64,000 nucleotides of DNA from Acidisarcina sp. (GTDB lineage: Bacteria > Acidobacteriota > Terriglobia > Terriglobales > Acidobacteriaceae). Positions 17,283 to 18,443 of this stretch are shown piece after piece; position 1 is the stretch's first letter, and each line of letters opens with the position of its first letter. Both the position numbers and the translations under genes were made by a program. The notes under the pieces are model-generated. The model was not told where the DNA came from and searched no databases. It was given only the letters and a program-made list of their open reading frames with translations. The DNA lies in contig DATLIY010000013.1 in the NCBI GenBank assembly GCA_035539175.1, positions 62,001-126,000 of the forward strand. The letters run 5' to 3'.

Positions 17283-17311
17283 TTGACGGGCGCGCCCTCC
17301 CGGCCTAATCT
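17283..17311 (+). promoter_or_regulatory. Sigma-70-type promoter of the thiG leader RNA
   Basis: TTGACG (17283-17288) and TAATCT (17306-17311) are separated by exactly 17 bases; each hexamer matches consensus at five or four of six positions. Transcription would begin near 17318. Confidence 0.6.
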
Positions 17312-17344
17312 GCAGGTACACGGGAAAGGAGGATGATCCAGCCT

Positions 17345-17398
17345 ATGAAGATTGAACCAAGTTGTTGCAGGAATCAACGTGAGGTGACTGAGGCTTAG
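17345..17398 (+). CDS. 17-codon mini-ORF with tandem cysteines (possible leader peptide)
   Basis: The frame encodes [18 protein letters not shown] near-perfect ribosome-binding site AAAGGAGG (17325-17332) lies 12 bases before the ATG; the alternative ATG at 17333 touches it and cannot be used. The adjacent Cys-Cys codons recall cysteine-responsive leader peptides described ahead of sulfur-metabolism genes in other phyla. ThiG uses sulfur that ultimately comes from cysteine. The last codons form the 5' arm of the P1 helix. A leader-peptide role is inference only. Confidence 0.4.
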
Positions 17399-17516
17399 GG
17401 CTCTGCGCTCTAGACCTGGCGAAACCGCAATCCACTCGCCGAGGCCCACTTTCAATCCCGTACTCCCGGGATTTGAAGGCGCGGATGCCTCAGGTCAAAC
17501 CCAACAGTTCACCGGT

Positions 17517-17560
17517 GATGGGCTCGCCGCCAGAGATGGCAGCGAGCCCATCACTTTTAT
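17517..17560 (+). terminator. Rho-independent terminator between leader RNA and thiG
   Basis: GATGGGCTCGC (17517-17527) pairs perfectly over 11 bases with GCGAGCCCATC (17542-17552) around a 14-base loop. ACTTTTAT follows. It lies 112 bases before thiG, so it would cut off read-through unless antagonised. Confidence 0.8.
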
Positions 17561-17672
17561 GACTCCAAGTTTGCCATTGGACGCTCAAGGGAGTGGAAGT
17601 ATTGGAGAGAAAATCGTCTCCGTCGATTTTCTCGTTTGTCATGCCGCGTACATCCGGTCTTACAATAGCGGT

Positions 17673-18443
17673 ATGGAACCCCTCGTTATTGCAGGAAGAG
17701 CTTTTCAATCCCGTCTGATTGTCGGAACCGGAAAGTACAAGGATGGCCCGGAGACTCAGGCCGCCATTGAAGCTTCGGGAGCCGAGATGGTCACTGTGGC
17801 CGTCCGCCGCGTCAACCTGGATCGCTCCAAGGAATCCTTGCTGGACTACATCGATCCCAAGCGCTATTTCCTGCTACCGAATACAGCCGGGTGTTATACC
17901 GCCGATGAGGCGATCCGCGCTGCGCGGCTGGGCCGGGAAGTTGGGCTCTCGGACTGGGTCAAGATCGAGGTCATTGGAGATCAGGCGACGCTCTATCCCG
18001 ATGTTCAAGCAACGCTGGAAGCTACTCGGGTACTGGTAAAGGAAGGCTTTACAGTTCTTCCGTATACTACTGATGATATTGTGTTTGCGAAACGGCTGAT
18101 CGATGCCGGAGCGGCTGCTGTCATGCCTCTCGGGGCGCCGATCGGCAGTGGAATGGGGATTCAGAATACGGCAACCTTGCGCATTCTCCGCGAGTTGATA
18201 ACCGAGGTTCCGCTGATCGTAGATGCCGGGGTGGGTACTGCTTCCGATGCGGCGCTTGCGATGGAGCTGGGAGCCGATGCGGTGCTGATGAACTCCGGAA
18301 TTGCGCACGCCGCCAAGCCGGTGCTGATGGCGGAGGCGATGATGCACGCCGTGCTCGCTGGTCGTGAGGCATACCTGGCCGGACGCATGGCGCGCAAGCT
18401 GTATGCCACGGCAAGTTCGCCGCTTGAAGGCGTGTCCCGATAA
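17673..18443 (+). CDS. thiG: Thiazole synthase
   Basis: ThiG forms the thiazole ring of thiamine from deoxyxylulose 5-phosphate, dehydroglycine and ThiS thiocarboxylate. The 256-residue TIM barrel shows the Schiff-base lysine in [10 protein letters not shown] (Lys97), the phosphate-binding loops [10 protein letters not shown] and [12 protein letters not shown], and [15 protein letters not shown] start it at ATG 17673; the upstream in-frame ATG at 17559 lies in the terminator. No thiS, thiF, thiH or thiO is adjacent, so this is a detached copy of the pathway. The 80-base gap to ruvC leaves co-transcription open. Confidence 0.95.

Follow-up and report, generated by a model that had tools for sequence, protein, structure and literature searches.

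Comparative sequence analysis makes it highly probable that the 64-kb stretch of Acidisarcina sp. DNA analysed here (the window) carries a structured small RNA of roughly 240 nt that forms an independent unit, is a divergent homolog of the catalogued actinobacterial sRNA Ms_IGR-5 and has a design that would set translation against folding. Comparison supports its promoter and terminator, its near-universal presence in the family, a 5' end that can pair with 16S rRNA, the kept frame and stop of a mini-ORF, and the helices P0 and P1. The initial annotation had described a promoter followed by a strong ribosome-binding site, an ORF of 17 codons in which two Cys codons adjoin, a multi-branched fold and, last, a terminator; sequence reading and folding recovered the whole series at 17283-17560 of the forward strand.

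All parts mapped in this paragraph, and the thiG -10 box below, lie on the forward strand. The sigma-70-type promoter (17283-17311), recognized by sequence reading and by comparison, consists of TTGACG at 17283-17288, a 17-nt spacer and TAATCT at 17306-17311; in the window copy, GGGAAAGGAGG lies between TAATCT and the mini-ORF ATG. The RNA, about 241 nt, would run from 17318, where a start at the conserved ACAC is predicted, to the end of the terminator T-run at 17558. Close to its 5' end are one strand of P0 (CACG, 17319-17322) and a segment complementary to the 16S rRNA 3' tail, which is an extended Shine-Dalgarno sequence with one bulged A (17323-17343). The mini-ORF extends over 17 codons from ATG at 17345 to a TAG ending at 17398, with adjacent Cys codons (TGT TGC) midway, and its frame, start and stop position are conserved. 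It contains the other strand of P0 (CGTG, 17378-17381), which is supported by covariation, and the 5' strand of P1, GGTGACTGAGGC (17383-17394), which lies within codons 13-17; the overlap of P1 with the mini-ORF end noted in the initial annotation is thus confirmed. A hairpin, P2, starts at the stop codon (17396-17413) and is supported mainly by one-sided changes. The inner 3' strand of P1, GCCTCAGGTC (17487-17496), was placed by comparative structure, as was its 5' strand, and is followed by a conserved 3' element, AAACCCAACAGTTCACC (17497-17513), whose CACC closes P1 with GGTG at 17383-17386. A similar element is present in the copies shown from Actinobacteria and other phyla. The intrinsic terminator (17515-17558), seen in the fold and in relatives, is a hairpin at 17515-17554 followed by TTTT; its presence agrees with the earlier description, and its outer stem is 13 bp in the computed fold instead of 11 bp. 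The fold of the window RNA beats 200 of 200 shuffles (z -4.38).

Transcription unit and gene neighbours

The promoter and terminator recur in relatives. Of 116 non-redundant upstream stretches, picked from 172 copies with enough flank, 108 have a TAnnnT hexamer that starts 5-16 nt upstream of the conserved ACAC; in a control window placed still further away, 3 do. The TTGACG-17-TAATCT promoter was not listed by a simple promoter scan of the window because TAATCT fits TATAAT at 3 of 6 positions and the scan requires 4. At the other end, a stable hairpin lies 3' of the element in all 55 loci L001-L055, which represent 50 distinct copies.

The genes around the RNA vary. A thiG homolog is found within about 1.5 kb downstream in 9 of 20 family loci (8 of 17 in a smaller set), and in 4 of these 9 it is 0.7-1.0 kb away. 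At L008 the RNA is flanked by an ABC-ATPase-like gene and by ruvC, and thiG is missing from the interval; the next gene is GMP-synthase-like at L010, encodes MgtE N, CBS and PRC domains at L014, and is an opposite-strand NUDIX gene at L020. Only Pfam-checked downstream genes are named, because naive gene calls include false ORFs; the ABC gene 5' of L008 was identified by eye. A search for a conserved neighbour gene found ORF clusters common to at most 23 of 100 loci, within related groups.

In the window, thiG has a -10 box of its own outside the RNA, TACAAT at 17661-17666, supported by relatives: TACAAT or TAAAAT stands 6 nt 5' of the ATG in all 8 loci read (the ninth, L007, was left out). 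Because this box ends 6 nt from the ATG (17661-17672), the thiG mRNA is predicted to be leaderless, or nearly so, in this family, and thiG appears to have its own promoter. The RNA was previously thought to fill the whole gap before thiG; it ends near 17558, and the thiG start shared by relatives is at 17673. A second hairpin, of 10 pairs followed by a T-rich stretch, is present at 17607-17633, between the RNA terminator and thiG. Given the varying neighbours, the RNA's own promoter and terminator, and the separate -10 box of thiG, the sequence evidence indicates that the RNA is its own transcription unit. The independent small RNA that the initial annotation held in reserve is therefore favoured over its main hypothesis, that a cysteine-responsive leader peptide controls thiG by attenuation.

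We consider this attenuation hypothesis very improbable. Leader-peptide attenuators of the trp and cys type combine a short ORF, helices that overlap its end and a terminator, all of which the window RNA resembles, and the window copy has Cys-Cys codons. Moreover, Cys occurs in 43 of 47 distinct family copies (those remaining once the duplicates L021=L001, L026=L005, L033=L003, L036=L002 and L039=L004 are merged), and thiG is downstream in the 9 loci mentioned above. However, adjacent Cys codons occur in just 2 of the 47 distinct family copies, and any Cys at all in 23 of 40 non-redundant copies overall. At the other loci thiG is absent, distant or replaced, sometimes by an opposite-strand gene, and thiG has its own -10 box. 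Unlike leader-peptide attenuators, the window RNA has neither a conserved downstream gene nor conserved regulatory codons, and by sequence it would share no transcript with a sulfur or thiamine gene. Readings that tie the RNA to a downstream gene, thiG included, are corrected by these results.

Distribution and relation to known RNAs

Conservation in relatives was a check set beforehand. Matches by blastn were found in 28 of 61 genomes, own genome included, and the 20 best loci have in common, apart from minor differences, the 5' ACAC.GGAAAGGAGG..GATCC, the mini-ORF, GTGAGGTGRCTGAGGC, the GCCTCAG strand, AATCCCAACAG..ACCGG and the terminator. A covariance model, R1, built from 17 of these 20 loci, covers 17318-17514 of the window copy (L021) and matches 344 of 398 family genomes, or 327 of 381 without its 17 seeds. 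Among the cleanest family genomes the count is 234 of 256, and the RNA is nearly always single-copy. Eight of the 28 genomes matched by blastn had weak matches without a locus; 7 of the 8 match R1 and G052 does not. Of the 54 family genomes without an R1 match, 10 were retested with a laxer filter: 8 were empty, one had a weak but real-looking copy (G006, L063) and one a degraded-looking copy (G152, L062). The latter, at L062:1501-1567, has AAAGCGGGATGATCCAGCC and a start codon, with the rest missing. Because 8 of 10 retested genomes are empty and the G152 copy looks decayed, we conclude that the RNA can be lost.

The RNA extends well beyond this family. A scan of public genomes for AAGGAGGTGRTCC, 18-48 free bases and GAGGTGRCTG found at least 120 stretches, where roughly one is expected by chance in the collection. 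Among the 120 matches listed, 111 are from Actinobacteria by title. The other 9 listed, among them all six confirmed outlying named loci, are metagenome bins, labelled Acidobacteria (L075, L109), Deltaproteobacteria (L092, L125), Nitrospinae (L101), Zixibacteria (L103), Sumerlaeota (L086), Spirochaetia (L121) and Phycisphaerales (L166, unconfirmed). The copy at L109:6452-6563, on an Acidobacteriota-labelled contig, resembles Acidimicrobiia copies, so the label of this bin may be wrong or the bin mixed. L075 has the same mini-ORF as L067, from a same-order genome, and the two are probably duplicates; L068 duplicates L056.

A second covariance model, R2, built on 38 sequences from several phyla, matches 13 of 14 source genomes once each, 10 of the 13 being its own seeds; of four non-seed genomes, it found the copies at L092, L073 and L148 and not L166. 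In sampled genomes R2 matched 35 of 80 Actinomycetota (chosen centre counted, two seeds; matches near E 0.001 accepted by score alone) and 21 of 99 Acidobacteriota (chosen centre counted, three seeds), the latter comprising 10 of 10 from the family and 11 of 89 others. In the phylum of L092 the count was 3 of 99, chosen centre included. The strict filters applied above 40 genomes may lose weak copies. We conclude that the RNA is common in Actinomycetota and Acidobacteriota, uneven within both, and patchy in other phyla.

An Rfam search, proposed earlier as a check on novelty, returned no family at its gathering cut-off anywhere in the window, the RNA itself included; weak matches to SNORD102, MIR8622, DUF1874 and others were judged to be chance. 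The model for Ms_IGR-5 (RF02471) does not match the window copy even at E up to 10, and finds nothing in its own genome at E up to 1. The same model does accept some relatives: L012 passes the cut-off over its full length with 49.5 bits, as the only one of 10 acidobacterial sources, and G039 (47.0 bits) and G047 (47.7 bits) pass among 37 relatives' genomes. Of 15 sources scanned it accepts 8, namely 6 of 6 actinobacterial ones, L103 (55.9 bits, the Zixibacteria bin) and L056 (47.0), and rejects L086, L092, L101, L121, L125, L051 and L061. Most acidobacterial copies fall below the cut-off.

The two RNAs have an architecture in common, in which ACAC, an extended Shine-Dalgarno sequence, GUGAGGUG, AAU..CAG..CACC and a terminator follow one another; more specifically, Ms_IGR-5 shares with the window RNA the 5' ACAC, GGAAGGAGGUGGUCC, GUGAGGUGGCUG and AAUUCC..CAG.CACC, then a terminator. 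The window copy differs from Ms_IGR-5 in the bulged A of its 16S-complementary segment and in an added CUGAGGC:GCCUCAG helix, and its mini-ORF has 17 codons compared to mostly 12 in actinobacterial loci. In the structure line of the Rfam family, pairing of the 5' part follows another scheme and an ORF is not indicated. From this sequence comparison we regard the window RNA as a divergent homolog of Ms_IGR-5 that stands outside formal membership, because its score is below the cut-off. In the parts of the literature consulted, ribosome footprints are recorded on the Ms_IGR-5 homologs of M. abscessus and M. smegmatis (PMC4974804), and Ms_IGR-5 was validated by RNA-seq in S. lividans (PMC8079986) and reported as an sRNA unit in S. 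avermitilis (PMC8780764). No description of its mini-ORF, 16S complementarity or breadth was found in this mainly open-access, non-preprint literature.

Other known RNAs are less similar. The Caulobacter sRNA CC2171 (RF01867) begins with GAAAGGAGGUGAUCCAG, which is complementary to the 16S tail, and is similar in size to the window RNA. However, its model scores 14.5 bits against the window RNA (17316-17548) compared to a cut-off of 75, many aligned pairs fail, and the printed part of CC2171 is without the GUGAGGUG element. The likeness seems convergent or very distant, and we treat it as a lead only. Like the window RNA, tmRNA (RF00023) is structured and brings a short reading frame to the ribosome, whereas the window RNA has its own start codon and Shine-Dalgarno sequence. 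The window RNA does not match this family, and the genome's true tmRNA is at C7:874893-875243. A genome-wide search for 6S RNA (RF00013) at E up to 0.001 found nothing.

Mini-ORF, 16S complementarity and conserved helices

The reading frame is among the most constrained features. In the non-redundant set of 41 copies, 38 (40 with CTG) have an in-frame start, suitably spaced from the Shine-Dalgarno sequence, whose frame stays open to a fixed GAG, compared to 3 and 1 for the other two frames (4 and 2 with CTG). A stop lies exactly five codons after this GAG in 40 of the 41 (TAG in 33, TAA in 5, TGA in 2), and the stretch between start and GAG measures 6-17 codons. A stop codon was no requirement of the models or of the pattern. 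The set leaves out L166, which lacks the fixed stop and is unconfirmed by R2, and L215, a weak match with no anchor; it includes L148, which is the one copy without the fixed stop, and L203, whose anchor was picked by hand. The same codon is a stop in 184 of 186 loci of the redundant set, which are not all independent, and the fixed stop is present in 14 of 15 inspected loci from the R2 searches of Acidobacteriota and of the L092 phylum, the exception being the weakest, L215, which has no such element. In the copy at L148:5973-6096, from an uncultured actinobacterium bin, the mini-ORF frame is lost near its end and the remaining RNA is kept; if real, this copy is a natural test of the need for translation.

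The encoded peptide is far less constrained. Its variable part has a pN/pS of 0.82 (113 close pairs of 47 distinct copies), and differences are spread evenly over the three codon positions (1072, 1041 and 1071). Ser and Cys make up 78 and 29 of 374 variable residues (17348-17380 in the window), the latter about 8%, and these shares are far above those of usual proteins. The conservation of frame, start and stop indicates that the mini-ORF is translated, and because the peptide drifts and Cys-Cys is rare, translation itself, rather than the peptide, seems to be kept. An alternative is that the RNA is the messenger for a small peptide of about 12-22 residues ending in EV(A/T/V/P)xx, as a conserved ORF with start, Shine-Dalgarno sequence and stop would suggest. 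We consider this quite improbable, since the variable part drifts nearly neutrally by pN/pS and by codon position, and the constant peptide end doubles as helix sequence.

Upstream of the start codon, the RNA is complementary to the 3' end of its own genome's 16S rRNA, GGCTGGATCACCTCCTTTCT (L216). Apart from one bulge, the window site is complementary to this tail along its entire 20-base length, giving a duplex of -37.1 kcal/mol. It ranks first when 31,988 stretches, sampled at 4-base steps from the two strands of the window, are compared, and the next unrelated site reaches -26.6 kcal/mol. Across 40 non-redundant copies, the window's included (the 41-copy set without L141), duplex energies range from -25.5 to -38.1; for pattern-found copies part of this fit is built into the search, and those columns figure in the models too. 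One interpretation of such strong pairing, both within the window and across the 40 folded copies, is that the RNA is a decoy or hibernation RNA whose 20-nt pairing holds 30S subunits and lowers initiation elsewhere. We think this unlikely, since an open frame is unnecessary for a decoy, yet frame and stop are kept.

The initial annotation also called for a covariation check across relatives, and two-sided changes in P0 and P1 exceed those in shuffles. In a 38-sequence alignment built without structure, P0 joins the extreme 5' end to the last bases before the GAG and closes a loop that contains the Shine-Dalgarno sequence and the start codon. It occurs as CAC:GUG, CGC:GCG and other versions, and 3 of its 4 pairs have two-sided changes. 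One pair is A-U in 25 sequences, G-C in 10, C-G in 1 and G-U in 1, and the next is C-G in 33, A-U in 3 and U-A in 1, with one sequence unpaired at each. P1 pairs GGUGR with YYACC, and its outer part is 94.7% paired. For P0 and P1 together, 93.8% of cells are paired compared to 27-52% in slid versions, and 32 cells have two-sided changes compared to 6.6 in shuffles; depending on the measure, 0 to 2 of 500 shuffles match the observed covariation. One slid structure has 7 pairs with a two-sided change versus 5 observed, though far fewer of its cells are paired.

The CUGAGGC:GCCUCAG helix is an addition carried by the acidobacterial copies. Among 20 of these copies, base 17387 fits the inner P1 pairing in 15 of 18 readable rows and the outer pairing in 10 of 18 (the inner row of L009 is misplaced). 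A further helix, GGUCC:GGAC, can be drawn in the ORF loop; by eye it is absent from several family copies, and it lies outside the helix counts given above. Some of the 5' conservation seen in Actinobacteria and in one acidobacterial family seems to stem from this helix.

Proposed function and significance

Mini-ORF codons 12-17 double as P0 and P1 strands, so translation and folding would be mutually exclusive. A ribosome that loads and translates would have to melt P0 and P1, and the RNA would exist in one of two states, open with a ribosome on it or folded without one. Plentiful ribosomes would keep it open. When ribosomes are scarce, it would fold, expose the 3' element, which reads AAUCCCAACAG in the majority of the family copies shown, and act in trans on a putative partner. 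The open frame, the drifting peptide and the full 16S complementarity together point to the ribosome as partner. We tentatively suggest that the RNA could sense the supply of free 30S subunits whose tails are intact, reporting ribosome availability or the integrity of the 30S tail.

Alternatively, the RNA could be one of the dual-function trans-acting sRNAs, a known kind of RNA. Its 3' element or hairpins would base-pair with mRNAs, and the mini-ORF would only tune its stability or clear it from those mRNAs. An independent, structured and nearly always single-copy unit is consistent with this, but the strongest constraint falls on the ORF frame, on P0/P1 and on the 5' end that can pair with 16S rRNA, which makes this explanation rather doubtful.

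Judged against the parts of the literature located, in which Ms_IGR-5 is catalogued and uncharacterised, the results place it in a wider family of RNAs that is nearly fixed in one acidobacterial family. New here are the wide distribution, the conservation of the mini-ORF and the complementarity to 16S rRNA; the expression and footprints of Ms_IGR-5 were already on record in those sources. We speculate that these RNAs may form an ancient multi-phylum class that measures the ribosome, with a 5' end that reads the 16S tail, a fold that is reset by a near-arbitrary mini-ORF and a folded state that signals 30S shortage or damage to a putative partner. Ms_IGR-5, and perhaps CC2171 by convergence, would then be local versions of this class.
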